A stretch of DNA of 64,000 bases. Source: Vibrio sp. MEBiC08052 (GTDB lineage: Bacteria > Pseudomonadota > Gammaproteobacteria > Enterobacterales > Vibrionaceae). Positions 20,756 through 62,656 of this stretch are shown here, piece after piece. The notes under the pieces were generated by a model that was not told the origin of the DNA, made no database searches, and worked only from the letters and a program-made list of their open reading frames with translations. The translations under genes and the position numbers were made by a program. The stretch's first letter is position 1; every line of letters begins with the position of its first letter. The DNA is taken from positions 3,582,660 to 3,646,659 of the forward strand of contig NZ_KQ947475.1 of assembly GCF_001506075.1 (NCBI RefSeq), read 5' to 3'.

Positions 20756-21084
20756 TCTTTCTTCGATTTCTGTCACATCGGTACTCAGTGCGCCGGTTAC
20801 TCTTGCCAAGATGCAAGCGTAACCAGAAGACTTTTTGTTTGATTGAGTCGCACGTTATCCAGAACCGGCTTTTACGGGCGTCCTGCCCGGAAAAGCCTAA
20901 CCATTCATCCGTGAATGGTTTTCTTTGTTGGGTGGTTGATTTGAGTGGGGTGAAAGATTTTTCAGGCCAATTTGAACGATGCATTCAGGGGAAAATTCAG
21001 GACGAATTTCAAGCAGTTCTCTAGCGAAAAAGTTGAGCAGGAGCGAATAAAACCATCGCGGCTCAGTTAACAACGTCAATGAAC
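20741..21084 (+). repeat. Multi-hairpin dispersed repeat, copy B (longest)
   Basis: This is the most complete copy in the window. It has four hairpins in a row: GGTTACTCTTGC (20795-20806) / GCAAGCGTAACC (20813-20824); GGCTTTTACGGGC (20867-20879) / GCCCGGAAAAGCC (20885-20897); AACCATTCA (20899-20907) / TGAATGGTT (20912-20920) with a TCCG loop; AAATTC (20993-20998) / GAATTT (21004-21009). The left end shares GTTTGACGCACAA with copy A, and the right end shares CAACGTCAATGAAC with copy E. No open frame of note. The ars promoter begins 30 nt beyond the right end. Confidence 0.85.
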
Positions 21085-37986: not shown

Positions 37987-38087
37987 TGACCCTCTAAACC
38001 GAGGGTCACCTAGCCAACTGACGTTGTTAGTGAACCCTGTTGTTCACATTGATTGTGCCAAGTGCAGATTGCACTTGGCTTTTTTTT
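37987..38087 (+). ncRNA. qrr: Qrr quorum-regulatory small RNA
   Basis: This RNA of about 100 nt has all four Qrr elements. A 5' hairpin TGACCCTC/GAGGGTCA is followed by the invariant central block beginning CTAGCCAACTGACG, which base-pairs with luxR/hapR-type, aphA and luxO targets with Hfq. A third hairpin GTGAAC..GTTCAC and the terminator GCCAAGTGC (38057-38065) / GCACTTGGC (38071-38079) with eight T complete it. At low cell density phosphorylated LuxO drives sigma-54 transcription. Which of the Qrr paralogues (1-5) it is cannot be decided from sequence alone. luxO is not nearby, so this is one of the unlinked copies. Confidence 0.95.
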
Positions 38088-38285
38088 GCGTGTGAATAAA
38101 CGGTTTTTCAGGCGCTGGTTTTGAGTGAATCAATGTCATTATCCCATCAGTATTTTGATAAACGATATTCATTGGATGAACAATATTGAGAGCAGACGTT
38201 GCCGTTGATATACCTGTTGACATGCGTTCTCATTTTTATCCGGACAGCGTATGATGGGGCTCTTTTGGAAATATAAGTGATCATT

Positions 38286-41152: not shown

Positions 41153-42613
41153 TTACGACCCTTTCAGTGGTAATTCAGTGAGTTGATCTAATGTAAACGG
41201 GAAAGAAAGGATATCATGCAGCGAAATATCCGGAAGGTTGCCTGTCAGACCTTTTCTTCCCCAAGGATAAATCTGAATCATCTGCTGCAAAATATCGAAA
41301 ATCTGTTGAGCATTTTCACCGGTGTCTGCCAGTAATAGCCCGAGTCGGTCTGAGCTCAGACGGGAGACAAGATCCTGTTTTGAACAGAGTGAATGTGTTA
41401 ACTCTGTGCAGGCGTCGATATACCGAGGGGTCTCATGATAAATAATGATGACGGAATAGTTTGATGACTTCAGTGCCGTTTTAAACAAAACCAGTTGTTC
41501 CCACCAGTAGGTTTCCGAAACGACATTGGTCAGGTGCTTCTCCGGGTCATATTCATATTGACCCCTGATCCGGTTGATGAGTTTTCTCGCTCTTTGTTCC
41601 AACTGTTTCTTTAATTTACGGACTTGGTCTTTGCTTTCCCGCTTGTTTTGAATGTTTAGCTGCGACGAGGAATAGCTGCGGTAGCGCTTAAAAGCCGCTA
41701 ATGCATTTTGATAATCTTCTTGCTGTTCAGCAACCAAAGATTGTTGAAAATAAACTAACGCTAATAACTCATCATTGGCCGAATCCCGGGCTGCTTGTTC
41801 GGCTTTGGCGAGAAGTGCGACTGCTTCCGTCATATTCTGACGGAGCATTTCCAATCGGGCGCGGTTGATGTAGGAGTGTGTTTTTACCCAAGGAAGATTA
41901 TTTGCAACTGCCAAATCATGTGCATATTGAGCCGCTTCTTCGGCATCTTCCAGACGTTCCAGTCCTAGCAATGCTAAGGCTCGAAAATCCCAGACCTCCG
42001 CAACTTCCTGAAGAAAGTTTTTGTCCTCCAGAACTTCAAGCGCGCCATCTAAAACCGTCAACATATCGACATAACGGTTGAGCAGATATAAATCCCAAGC
42101 CCATAAGATTCTGGCTCTGCCTTCGAGTGATTCTTGACGAGTATTATTAGCAACTTTGACTGCCAGTTCATGGGTTGCGCAAGCGAGATGATATTCGTGA
42201 GTACTTCGCCAGATATTGCCGAGTCCGAGTAGACTCTCGATCAGAATATGGATGTCTTCTTCAAGCGTCGCCTGCTCTAAAGCATGAATCCAGTGTTGCT
42301 GGGCGGTATAAAATTTCCCTTCTTTCCATGAATGTAAAGCATGGAGGTGCAGAATTTCCGGCAAATATTCATCATTGTCGAGCTCGTTCTGAGTTGCCAG
42401 CGCTTCTTTGGCATAGCGGATTCCCTGCGCATGTTTTCCGAGTATCAAAGCACATCGGCACATGAGCATCAGGCATTGAATTGACCCCTCAGCGAAGTGA
42501 ATTTGTCTGGAGCGTATCAGACACTGTTCTGCTTTAGACAGAACGTCTGCTGGCGCAATCTCGAAACGGCGCTTGAGTTGCTCTATTTCAAGGAGATAAA
42601 GGCTTTTTTCCAA
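41153..42613 (-). CDS. TPR protein with degenerate GGDEF-like C-terminus
   Basis: The 486-residue protein resembles the TPR half of its downstream neighbour (helical repeats over about 30-320, coiled coil to 350). The last ~110 residues follow the GGDEF pattern: Y-S-V-I-I-I-Y-H-E-T in place of the D-I-D-H-F strand and L-V-S-R-L-S-S-D-R-L-G-L-L-L in place of R-x-G-G-D-E-F. All catalytic residues are lost. The two genes are one nt apart, so they are co-expressed; it may be a regulatory partner that arose by duplication. I infer this from the local similarity only. Confidence 0.75.
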   Translation of the reverse strand: MEKSLYLLEIEQLKRRFEIAPADVLSKAEQCLIRSRQIHFAEGSIQCLMLMCRCALILGKHAQGIRYAKEALATQNELDNDEYLPEILHLHALHSWKEGKFYTAQQHWIHALEQATLEEDIHILIESLLGLGNIWRSTHEYHLACATHELAVKVANNTRQESLEGRARILWAWDLYLLNRYVDMLTVLDGALEVLEDKNFLQEVAEVWDFRALALLGLERLEDAEEAAQYAHDLAVANNLPWVKTHSYINRARLEMLRQNMTEAVALLAKAEQAARDSANDELLALVYFQQSLVAEQQEDYQNALAAFKRYRSYSSSQLNIQNKRESKDQVRKLKKQLEQRARKLINRIRGQYEYDPEKHLTNVVSETYWWEQLVLFKTALKSSNYSVIIIYHETPRYIDACTELTHSLCSKQDLVSRLSSDRLGLLLADTGENAQQIFDILQQMIQIYPWGRKGLTGNLPDISLHDILSFPFTLDQLTELPLKGS

Positions 42614-43012
42614 ACTTAATTATTCCTTTGTTACGTCACTCCGACAAGTTACATTGATGAGCTTAGTTGAAATTATCAATGTGAGCGATTCTGGTCATAG
42701 TCTCCAGTCAAGGGGCATTTTACAGACTTATCTAATCGTTAAAATCATGTATTTGCATTAGCATAAAATATGCCAATAAGAGATAATTGCTGATAACGAA
42801 TGCTTCAACTGTTTATTTTTCCTGTCTATACAGTCATTATCATAAGATGATTTTAAAAAGGTGAGAAATATTTCTGATCGATATTTTGACTGGTACAAAA
42901 TTAAATGGATTACAAAATTAATTATACATGATTTTTTTTTGTACAATCTGCTATCATTGTTATACATGTGTATTTTTTGTATAACTATTTGTATGACGGT
43001 GAGGACGGAATG
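42614..43012. promoter_or_regulatory. Divergent promoter region with TTGTAYA boxes
   Basis: A very AT-rich region of about 400 nt. Near the plus-strand operon start it carries repeated TTGTA-type boxes: TTGTACAA (42939-42946), TTGTATAA (42977-42984) and TTGTATGA (42989-42996), with TTATACATG also occurring twice (about 42922 and 42960). Arrays of such boxes are used by MerR/CarH/LitR-type regulators, and a MerR-type gene is second in the operon. Autoregulation is inferred. Confidence 0.5.
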
Positions 43013-60971: not shown

Positions 60972-61322
60972 ATGTTACAGCATGATTTTGAACAGATGGT
61001 GAAGCAAGCCTGTCAGACCGGAAGTTTACCGCTTGCACTTGCCTATTTGAAGCAGGTTGACGAGGCAGAAATTGCTTCAGCGGCTGAAGCTTTAAGCGGG
61101 CAGTTTATGATTGCAGAGATTGAGGGTGAGCAACGTATTTATCATGTAACCATCCAAGAAGATGAATCGGGAACACCTGAAGAGCTTGCTGAATACGTGA
61201 TGACTGAAGGGGATGACGTGATTCGTTTTGTCGCTTGGTTTTTCGATACTCAATTCAGTATCAAAGGTAAAGAAACCTATCAGGCTGCGGGAAAAACATA
61301 TACCCAGCCAAAGCGCAAATAG
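60972..61322 (+). CDS. Conserved small acidic protein, function unknown
   Basis: The 116-residue protein has a helical N-terminal third (TPR-like single hairpin) and a beta-rich second half with E-G-E-Q-R-I-Y-H-V-T and V-A-W-F-F-D-T-Q-F. The start at ATG 60972 has a modest upstream GACGGAA. I do not recognise a family. It stands alone, divergent from the GGDEF/EAL gene. Confidence 0.6.
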   Translation: MLQHDFEQMVKQACQTGSLPLALAYLKQVDEAEIASAAEALSGQFMIAEIEGEQRIYHVTIQEDESGTPEELAEYVMTEGDDVIRFVAWFFDTQFSIKGKETYQAAGKTYTQPKRK

Positions 61323-61389: not shown

Positions 61390-61420
61390 AAAAAAAAAGC
61401 CTCCCTGATCAAAGGGAGGC
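61390..61420 (-). terminator. Intrinsic terminator of the candidate small RNA
   Basis: On the minus strand GCCTCCCT (61420-61413) pairs with AGGGAGGC (61406-61399) and runs into nine T residues (61398-61390). This is a textbook Hfq-type 3' end, and no annotated gene lies immediately upstream of it on this strand. Confidence 0.9.
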
Positions 61421-61492
61421 GAAGAACATGAAGTGACCAGTGATTCTGCCGTATCACTGTGAAAGAAGCACAAACGCTGCCTGCATTTGTCA
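61391..61492 (-). ncRNA. Candidate sigma-54-dependent small RNA
   Basis: Reading leftwards, a GG-N10-GC sigma-54 promoter (61517-61504) is followed at the right distance by a ~100-nt non-coding transcript. Hairpin 1 pairs ACAAACGC (61470-61477) with GCATTTGT (61483-61490); hairpin 2 pairs CAGTGAT (61438-61444) with ATCACTG (61453-61459); the 3' end is a strong terminator (61399-61420 plus an A-run read as T on this strand). It has no protein-coding potential and is separated from the porin gene by that gene's own terminator. It does not share the Qrr core sequence. I do not recognise it. Confidence 0.65.
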
Positions 61493-61503
61493 CTCTATAG
61501 ATT

Positions 61504-61519
61504 GCAGAGTTTGTGCCAA
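61504..61519 (-). promoter_or_regulatory. Sigma-54-type promoter for the candidate small RNA
   Basis: Minus-strand TTGGCACAAACTCTGCAAT has GG (61517-61516) and GC (61505-61504) separated by exactly 10 nt. The TTGGCAC -24 box is close to consensus. No LuxO-type TTGCA-W3-TGCAA site is seen upstream, so a different activator would be needed. Confidence 0.65.
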
Positions 61520-61636
61520 GTTATTAATGTTAGTTAAATCAGTAAGTTATTTTATTTTCTGTTGTGATGTACTTTTATGTGTGCGTTACAATGGGGCAAG
61601 ATAGCGATGAAATGGTGCAGTGAGCGTCGTGTCAGG

Positions 61637-61664
61637 AAAAAAGGTCAGGCATCTCTGCCTGACC
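61637..61664 (-). terminator. Terminator of the porin gene
   Basis: Minus-strand GGTCAGGCA (61664-61656) pairs with TGCCTGACC (61651-61643) and is followed by six T (61642-61637). It lies 36 nt beyond the porin stop. Confidence 0.9.
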
Positions 61665-61699: not shown

Positions 61700-62656
61700 T
61701 TAGAAATCGTAACGAATACCCGCTTGGAGTTGATCGTCTTTTTTCGTCAGTTGTTCGAACTTGTAGCCGGTATAAACACGCAGGTTACCATTGAATTTAT
61801 GCTCAACTTCCAGTGCAAGATGATCGACCGTATCTTTGTTATCAACTTCCTGAAAGTTGTATACAGCGATCAGTGATGTTTTGCCGAACTTGTATTTTGC
61901 ACCTAACTCATAGTCATCGGCATCAACTTCTTTGCCGCCTGAAACGGCTGTGCCAGTTCCGTATAGGGCACCTAGTGTTAATGCATCCAGTTTAAATTGT
62001 CCGCCGATATTGAATTGGTCTTCAGAGTTAGAAGATCCACTGTCTTGAGTCACGTAACCCAGACCAACAGTCAGATTTTCAGTGAAGCCATACACAGCTG
62101 AAATACCGAAACTATCATTGTCCTTTTTGTCTGACGCAATGTAGTTCGCTTGAATGCTCAGTGCATCGAATTTACCTGAATAAACAAAGTTGTTATCACG
62201 CTTATCTTTGTTACCACCGATGAGGTCGGCAGCTTCTTCATCAAATGTGTTCATCAGATCAGTAAAGTTTGTTACCTGTACCTGAGCTGAATCTTGCTTA
62301 CCATAAGAAAACTCACCGATATTTGTGCCCATACCCGCATAGAAATAACGGTTGGTCAGGTTATCGCCATCCCCGTCTCCTTTGCTGCTACTGTTATCGA
62401 GTTCTGCTTCATATTTACCAAAGCCATACAAATCATCAGATAGTGCAGTTTTACCGACCAAGTTAACCCGTGCCCGAGATTTGTCTTTAAAACGACTATT
62501 TTTAGTCGATTCATTTTCGTCGGAAAGATTGAAACGCGCTTCGGCACGACCGCCCACTTTCAGGGTTGTGCCTTTGCTATCATAGACTGTGGCAGCAATA
62601 GAAGAGCCGGATACCAATGCTGTGAGAATGGCTGTTGTCAGAACTGCTTTTTTCAT
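61700..62656 (-). CDS. Outer-membrane porin (OmpU/OmpT-like)
   Basis: The 318-residue precursor has a signal peptide (M-K-K-A-V-L..S-I-A-A, cleavage about 22), alternating amphipathic strands of a 16-stranded porin and the C-terminal phenylalanine (I-R-Y-D-F) needed for BAM assembly. Loop residues are strongly acidic. It belongs to the general Gram-negative porin family of vibrios, but I cannot decide between OmpU and OmpT classes. Confidence 0.88.
   Translation of the reverse strand: MKKAVLTTAILTALVSGSSIAATVYDSKGTTLKVGGRAEARFNLSDENESTKNSRFKDKSRARVNLVGKTALSDDLYGFGKYEAELDNSSSKGDGDGDNLTNRYFYAGMGTNIGEFSYGKQDSAQVQVTNFTDLMNTFDEEAADLIGGNKDKRDNNFVYSGKFDALSIQANYIASDKKDNDSFGISAVYGFTENLTVGLGYVTQDSGSSNSEDQFNIGGQFKLDALTLGALYGTGTAVSGGKEVDADDYELGAKYKFGKTSLIAVYNFQEVDNKDTVDHLALEVEHKFNGNLRVYTGYKFEQLTKKDDQLQAGIRYDF

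Follow-up and report, generated by a model that had tools for sequence, protein, structure and literature searches.

The minus strand of Vibrio sp. MEBiC08052 (contig NZ_KQ947475.1) bears a predicted gene for a small RNA (sRNA) at 61390-61519 of the 64,000-nucleotide stretch analyzed here, the whole of which is termed the window. The gene probably encodes a stand-alone, trans-acting sRNA of nitrogen limitation, which would be activated by phosphorylated NtrC, IHF, and sigma-54. On the side of the sequence, this reading is supported by a conserved promoter, covariation in a hairpin, NtrC-like and IHF-like sites, a motif held in a loop, and synteny.

Structure of the sRNA gene

The gene and its upstream region comprise the parts below.

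61700..62656, minus strand: porin gene, the conserved neighbor (Porin_4, 3.6e-30)
61643..61664, minus strand: terminator-like stem 3' of the porin gene, before the sRNA promoter (seen in the sequence)
61603..61619, minus strand: putative upstream activating site 1, TGCACCATTTCATCGCT, which includes the NtrC half-site TGCACCA and lies 101 nt ahead of the -24 element
61582..61598, minus strand: putative upstream activating site 2, TGCCCCATTGTAACGCA, a degenerate NtrC-like palindrome, 80 nt upstream of the -24 element
61503..61519, minus strand: predicted sigma-54 promoter TTGGCAC-N5-CTGCA (minus strand, TTGGCACAAACTCTGCA), one mismatch to TTGGCAC-N5-TTGCW
61390..61492, minus strand: predicted small RNA of approximately 100 nt (fold z of -3.4; covariance-model matches in relatives)
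61470..61490, minus strand: 5' hairpin ACAAAUGC-AGGCA-GCGUUUGU (fold and covariation; sequence almost invariant in subtypes A and B)
61477..61481, minus strand: GGCAG motif of hairpin 1, within CAGGCAG (GGCAG occurs in 66 of 66 loci)
61460..61469, minus strand: linker 1, GCUUCUUUCA, a CU-rich segment predicted to be unpaired and a candidate for pairing
61438..61459, minus strand: hairpin 2 (from the fold), the upper part of which carries a second GGCAG (61450-61446)
61421..61437, minus strand: linker 2, GUCACUUCAUGUUCUUC, unpaired in the predicted fold, candidate pairing segment
61390..61420, minus strand: intrinsic terminator and U tail (stem 61420-61399, then nine T)

All of the predicted parts, namely the -24/-12 element, the 5' hairpin, hairpin 2, and the strong terminator, were found at the expected coordinates; the first-pass annotation was right in placing a GG-N10-GC promoter, two hairpins, and a strong terminator on this strand. 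The putative start lies at approximately 61492, 12 nt past the C of the -12 element, and results in an RNA of 102 nt. The fold of this RNA was calculated at -33.9 kcal/mol, as compared with -23.4 +/- 3.1 kcal/mol in shuffled sequences (z of -3.4; none of the 200 shuffles was as good). The UUCAUGU in linker 2 recurs in many members of subtype A, in the members of subtype D examined, and in locus L245 (see below for the subtypes). A 116-aa ORF with no Pfam match lies convergent with the sRNA gene on the plus strand (60972-61322), and a relative of this ORF is found near the sRNA in L004.

The promoter pattern in a single genome is weak evidence on its own. With at most one mismatch to TTGGCAC-N5-TTGCW, the sRNA promoter was the sole site in the window, and with two mismatches allowed, 16 matches appeared against 13.9 expected, i.e., at the chance level. 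The pattern TGGCAY-N6-TGCW was found three times in the window (one being the Qrr promoter) against 0.79 expected, a count reached by 4 of 100 shuffles. A sigma-70-like match extends over the same bases (61519-61492), and such matches are at the chance level in the window (3 against 3.6). We regard the sRNA locus as more than a product of chance because its promoter and hairpins are conserved across relatives, as described in the next section. At another place in the window (42760-42776, minus strand), we noticed a sigma-54-like element, TTGGCATATTTTATGCT, approximately 150 nt ahead of a 486-aa ORF (41153-42613).

Conservation of the promoter and hairpins

A DNA search of 61 genomes recovered convincing relatives of the sRNA gene in four other genomes (G010, G023, G019, and G030) and short matches in G059 and G038. 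In G010, three tandem copies follow one porin gene, each with a sigma-54 promoter of its own (positions 1500-2040 of locus L010); this is a local expansion. The covariance model R1, which was built on seven RNAs with the promoter sequence left out, gave matches with E <= 0.01 in 52 of the 227 genomes of the genus. The retrieved loci contained 54 R1 matches, 50 of which were strong (E <= 1.4e-7; seven of these are the training sequences of the model). All of the 50 strong matches were preceded by GG-N10-GC 25-27 nt upstream of the model start. Among the four weak matches (L059, L060, L061, and L062), which were left out of the counts, the element was found 43 nt upstream in L059 and was absent in the other three; L059 may be a diverged member of the family. 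In an alignment of 31 sequences, the promoter half was invariant at TGGCA and TGC alone; the spacer and the flanks varied. This pattern points to selection on the sigma-54 promoter, not to mere recent descent.

Covariation in the 5' stem was assessed with an alignment of 28 diverse sequences, covering all four subtypes and L156, across which the stem was 96.8% paired. None of 500 shuffles reached the covariation score of the stem, and the slid versions of it were all lower as well. Changes on both sides were counted in 12 cells as compared with 3.6 in shuffles, a figure exceeding all of the 500 shuffles and the slid versions. Neither the count of doubly changed pairs (3) nor that of additional pair types (8) was above the shuffles. 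Altogether, the -24/-12 element and the hairpin, the conservation of which in Vibrio relatives had been named as decisive for the first-pass annotation, turned out to be conserved (50 of 50 promoters; a covarying stem), and its proposal of a sigma-54-type sRNA gene is borne out by them. The same observations bear on the reading of the locus as a non-functional remnant, i.e., conserved promoter-like DNA that gives no working transcript. Such a remnant is very improbable, as the promoter, the 5' hairpin, and the terminator are retained together in the strong matches and the stem covaries.

The transcript of approximately 100 nt had been described as lacking coding potential, which agrees with the absence of a conserved ORF: the frame from the first ATG, located in the 5' hairpin, comprises 10 codons in the window, is likewise short in the close relatives, and shifts between the subtypes. 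Across 50 loci, this frame spanned between 8 and 37 codons within the examined stretch and had no common end. The ATG within the 5' hairpin, together with several subtype A frames that met no stop codon before the examined stretch ended (30-36 codons), would fit a leader or a short mRNA encoding a small peptide. Against a peptide stand the 10-codon frame of the window and close relatives, the frame shifts and unshared ends among the subtypes, the position of the ATG at nucleotide 7 of the putative RNA, and the covariation of the 5' stem; we find this reading hardly credible. The sRNA is thus taken as non-coding.

Subtypes and distribution

Four subtypes, A to D, were seen with the model R2, which combines the promoter and the hairpin. 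At E <= 0.01, this model reached 74 of the 227 Vibrio genomes, the weakest matches including Qrr genes. Subtype A is the type of the window and has a second hairpin with GGCAG. Subtype B has a different middle part, GUCCUUUGAAUUGG. Subtype C, found in 11 loci (L139-L144, L146-L149, and L154), is approximately 150 nt in length with a long second stem around UUUUUUAGAGGGAGAAG, bears a further GGCAG in most of the loci, and adjoins a porin gene as in the window. Subtype D is characterized by the hairpin GAAUACAUGGCAGUAUUC. The 16 loci of subtypes C and D were found with R2, so that the promoters of these loci do not count as independent evidence.

With R3, a model that takes in all subtypes, 68 of the 227 Vibrio genomes gave a match at E <= 3.7e-5; the other 159 gave no match at this strict level in a search that scores the best candidates only and does not prove absence. 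At the level of the family, R3 matched 69 of 329 genomes, the extra one being a weak match (E = 3.6e-5) in G657, which belongs to another genus. An order-wide search with R2, again scoring the best candidates only, found matches in 11 of 394 genomes, all within the genus. None of the eight examined R3 matches weaker than 1e-4 was a member of the family: one was Qrr, six were other sigma-54-type promoters, and L249 was unclear. The R3 total of 178 is therefore not the size of the family.

Two extra R2 matches, L145 and L158, proved to be Qrr genes and were dropped. L156 and L157, the status of which was ambiguous, were also left out of the 66 loci used in the analyses below, and L244, L245, and L255 lie outside them. 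L244 (near 2016-2074) appears to be a subtype D member in which the GC of the -12 element reads AC and is lost, with the RNA otherwise intact. L156 (near 2636, ACAAATGCTCCACACGTATTTGTGCTTACATCT) and L245 (near 2076) possibly represent a further subtype with a sigma-54 promoter. L157 has a sigma-54 promoter near 2594 followed within approximately 100 nt by a terminator-like sequence, perhaps another sigma-54 sRNA.

Carriers were also collected by an exact 18-mer scan, in which 19 of the 32 records were of Vibrio; the 13 others compare with approximately 7 expected by chance, as estimated from the size of the collection. The carriers detected included V. ruber, V. furnissii, V. anguillarum, V. 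ordalii, V. harveyi, V. owensii, V. jasicida, V. rotiferianus, V. diabolicus, V. mytili, V. cincinnatiensis, and V. aestuarianus. A plasmid search returned one match for the subtype B query, in a 2.06-Mb record of Vibrio campbellii filed as a plasmid and bearing no annotated genes in that collection, by which V. campbellii is also a carrier, and none for the subtype A query. No exact match to the sRNA was found in viral contigs.

NtrC and IHF as the putative activators

We studied the regions upstream of 66 loci, comprising the 50 strong R1 matches, the 11 loci of subtype C, and 5 of subtype D. These loci are related to each other, and their upstream regions form 47 clusters. The strict palindrome TGCACY-N5-RGTGCA had no match in the genome of MEBiC08052, glnA included. 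Degenerate NtrC sites are thus normal in this genome, and we used instead a matrix trained on Vibrio glnK sites. All of the 30 genomes surveyed yielded the glnA and glnK-amtB loci, and the matrix was made from 45 glnK sites of these genomes, picked by likeness to the E. coli consensus. As a positive control, glnA scored higher with the matrix than the 99% control level in 29 of the 30 genomes.

When the matrix was applied to the sRNA loci, 43 of the 66 scored above the 95% level set by 2977 control windows (approximately 3 expected) and 25 above the 99% level (approximately 1 expected), with 23 falling below the 95% level. The NtrC half-site, TGCACYA/TRGTGCA, was present in 58 of the 66 loci as compared with 4.4% of control windows, and recurred near -101, -90, -68, and -59, at spacings of roughly whole turns of the helix. 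An IHF-like site no farther than 70 nt from the -24 element was found in 55 of the 66 loci with at most one mismatch (9.3% of windows) and in 28 as an exact site (1.2% of windows). The NtrC sites are enriched as a group in the 66 loci, individual sites being often degenerate, and many single NtrC-like sites fall within the shuffle range when consensus positions are counted. In the window, the putative upstream activating site 1 has a score of 5.1 with the glnK-trained matrix, which is reached by 3.4% of control windows; site 2 agrees with 8 of 12 consensus positions, which 18% of shuffles match, and is not significant alone. The relative L023 has a better NtrC-like match at the position of site 2. 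The support for NtrC is thin in subtype D, in which one locus of five has the half-site and one of five is supported by the matrix. Among the three tandem copies of G010, two bear half-sites but lack a full site that exceeds the control.

The glnA and glnK promoters of the same genomes resemble the sRNA promoter, agreeing with it in the half-site and its position. We also observed that the Vibrio glnA upstream sites (L182-L241) often consist of one good and one poor NtrC half, and that the glnK leaders (L182-L241) have an AT-rich, IHF-like sequence immediately ahead of the -24 element. None of 10 other sigma-54 promoters of the genus bore an NtrC half-site; four of them are of qrr, and the others include those of genes which we take by their products to be norV, flgF, and pspG. 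One of the ten, a qrr promoter, passed the 95% matrix level. LuxO-like sites were found in all of the four qrr promoters and in none of the 66 sRNA loci. The earlier suggestion that the activator differs from that of Qrr is in line with these counts (LuxO-like sites in 0 and NtrC half-sites in 58 of the 66 loci).

In the genome of MEBiC08052, the NtrC gene adjoins glnA and the gene of its sensor kinase, and the encoded NtrC is approximately 71% identical to the E. coli records. The sigma-54 activator domain is matched 18 times in the genome, and the sRNA could in principle be controlled by another enhancer-binding protein with NtrC-like sites, a reading that the degeneracy of many full sites would suit and in which the signal would not be nitrogen. 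We judge this unlikely, considering the agreement in half-site and position with glnA and glnK of the same genomes, the absence of the half-site from the 10 other sigma-54 promoters, and the absence of LuxO sites from the 66 loci. The activator of the sRNA is most likely NtrC with IHF.

Comparison with Qrr and other known sRNAs

Qrr, the classic example of a sigma-54 sRNA in vibrios, can be present in multiple copies. Qrr (RF00378) and the sRNA family described here share a sigma-54 promoter, a length of approximately 100 nt, hairpins, a terminator, and their occurrence in vibrios. In contrast to Qrr, the family has neither the Qrr core nor LuxO sites, and possesses NtrC-like and IHF-like sites instead. 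A quorum-sensing RNA of the Qrr type under LuxO would account for the layout, and Qrr itself occurs in the same window (37987-38088, 91.8 bits). This explanation is extremely unlikely given that the Qrr core and, in all of the 66 loci, LuxO-like sites are missing, and that the comparison with Rfam, one of the checks proposed at the outset, gave no match at the sRNA locus even at E <= 5. Apart from Qrr, Rfam matches in the window were limited to a borderline TwoAYGGAY RNA, and a single representative of each of the subtypes B, C, and D yielded sub-threshold matches only. Thus, the description of the gene as sharing the architecture of Qrr without its core stands, the only true Qrr found by Rfam being elsewhere in the window. 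The TwoAYGGAY match (20861-20925, minus strand) is just over the Rfam gathering score and covers less than half of the model.

NrsZ of Pseudomonas aeruginosa is reportedly an sRNA dependent on NtrB/C and RpoN. According to one review, NrsZ is induced by NtrB/C with RpoN and acts via a 5' stem-loop bearing ACAGGCAG (PMC9308961), and its induction and processing have also been described in another (PMC8395346). The window sRNA is similar to NrsZ in the sigma-54 promoter and the (putative) control of NtrC type, and its hairpin 1 has CAGGCAG where the 5' stem-loop of NrsZ has ACAGGCAG. They differ in that NrsZ, as described in those reviews, is approximately 226 nt, processed, and located beside ntrC, whereas the family studied here is approximately 100-150 nt and located beside a porin gene. 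The window sRNA lies on C1 near 3.64 Mb and ntrC on C2, the two genes thus not being adjacent. Pseudomonas was absent among the 32 NtrC-bearing records in the plasmid search. The resemblance to NrsZ, compared by motif alone, is likely a likeness in working and is not proof of kinship.

GGCAG was found in all of the 66 loci, twice in 31 of them, as compared with 293 of 3693 control windows (7.9%), which were of 75 nt and hence shorter than the RNA bodies of subtype C. In L054, L149, and L154, the motif is missing from hairpin 1 and kept further downstream. CAGGCAG, i.e., seven of the eight letters of ACAGGCAG in the form quoted from the review (PMC9308961), occurs in 19 of the 66 loci. We put forward, tentatively and with more doubt than confidence, that GGCAG held in a loop is the working part as in NrsZ, that the sRNA would constitute a second sigma-54 sRNA regulon of vibrios parallel to Qrr and reporting nitrogen status, and that GGCAG may be recurrent or ancestral in the NtrC-controlled sRNAs of gammaproteobacteria. 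The survival of the motif after its loss from the first loop (in the three loci above) and the compensated changes in the surrounding stem bear on this reading.

GlnZ of Enterobacteriaceae is an NtrC-controlled sRNA made in nitrogen limitation, as proposed for the window sRNA, but is cut from the 3'UTR of glnA (PMC9731577), whereas the window sRNA has its own predicted promoter. The srvg23535 of Vibrio alginolyticus is likewise a Vibrio-restricted sRNA, of 107 nt; as described (PMC6186989), it begins with GAATAGACAA, adjoins rctB, and has a predicted sigma-70 promoter. Its start, neighbor, and promoter type differ from those of the window sRNA and rule out that the two are the same gene. In the literature searched, itself available in part, we found no report of the window sRNA; supplements and further data sets were beyond the scope of this search, and an entry among unnamed sRNAs is quite possible. 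The main text of the V. cholerae RIL-seq paper does not mention rpoN, NtrC, or nitrogen. An sRNA tying nitrogen status to post-transcriptional control in Vibrio was likewise not found in the literature searched.

The porin neighbor and candidate targets

A porin-like ORF lies upstream of the sRNA on the same strand in 52 of the 66 loci, as judged by eye from the N-termini and, for the porin of the window only, by Pfam. Among the 14 loci with no porin call, at least six have another gene at the place, and the other eight include loci that end early. In subtype D, L150, L151, and L155 have a cysM-like gene in place of the porin gene and L152 and L153 adjoin a porin gene; L055-L057 have a 591-aa ORF there. 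In the window, the sRNA has an 8-bp match to the porin leader (GCUUCUUU/AAAGAAGC); the only other loci with this match are L022, L026, and L027, along with L024, where it is 7 bp long.

The first-pass annotation had considered the adjacent porin as a possible target. We compared 38 distinct pairs of sRNA and leader from subtypes A and B with 25 single-letter shuffles of each leader, setting aside L012, L050, and L055-L057 and leaving subtypes C and D out. In 37 of the 38 pairs, at least 5 of the 25 shuffled leaders allowed an accessible pairing as good as the true one; in the remaining pair, L028, 3 of 25 did. Pairing is thus no better than with shuffled leaders in the two subtypes, and the suggestion of the adjacent porin, as a conserved target, is rejected. 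An element acting in cis, or an sRNA dedicated to the neighboring porin, would be compatible with the porin-like ORF upstream in the 52 loci and with the 8-bp match in the window, and is not exclusive of the reading preferred here. We consider it improbable to a considerable degree, as the sRNA has its own predicted promoter, a terminator-like stem separates it from the porin gene, the shuffled leaders of subtypes A and B pair as well, and another gene takes the place of the porin gene in at least six loci (L150, L151, L155, and L055-L057). The porin gene is a conserved neighbor, and targeting of it is not supported by the sequences compared.

A scan for other targets covered 49 translation starts, namely those of 46 ORFs in the window (with a crude choice of starts) and of glnA, glnK, and ntrB. 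The best total was -6.75 kcal/mol and that of ntrB -3.6 kcal/mol, and no pairing was found for glnA or glnK; as raw energies, these values say little.

Proposed role of the sRNA

Returning to the sRNA of nitrogen limitation, we propose the following course of events, in which transcription, the activation by NtrC, the involvement of Hfq, and the action by base-pairing are what we infer. In nitrogen shortage, phosphorylated NtrC would bind to the sites of the TGCACCA/TRGTGCA type approximately 60-120 bp upstream of the promoter, and IHF would bend the DNA next to it. Sigma-54 RNA polymerase would then make a transcript of approximately 100 nt (approximately 150 nt in one subtype) ending at the U-rich terminator. 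The RNA would display GGCAG in one or two hairpins along with the CU-rich, unpaired linkers, and would likely act by base-pairing with mRNAs, probably assisted by Hfq, so as to tune their translation under nitrogen limitation.

If this proposal is true, vibrios possess a second family of sRNAs controlled by sigma-54 beside the quorum-sensing Qrr, and nitrogen status is tied to post-transcriptional control in Vibrio. A loop motif common to NrsZ and the vibrio sRNA is also suggested.
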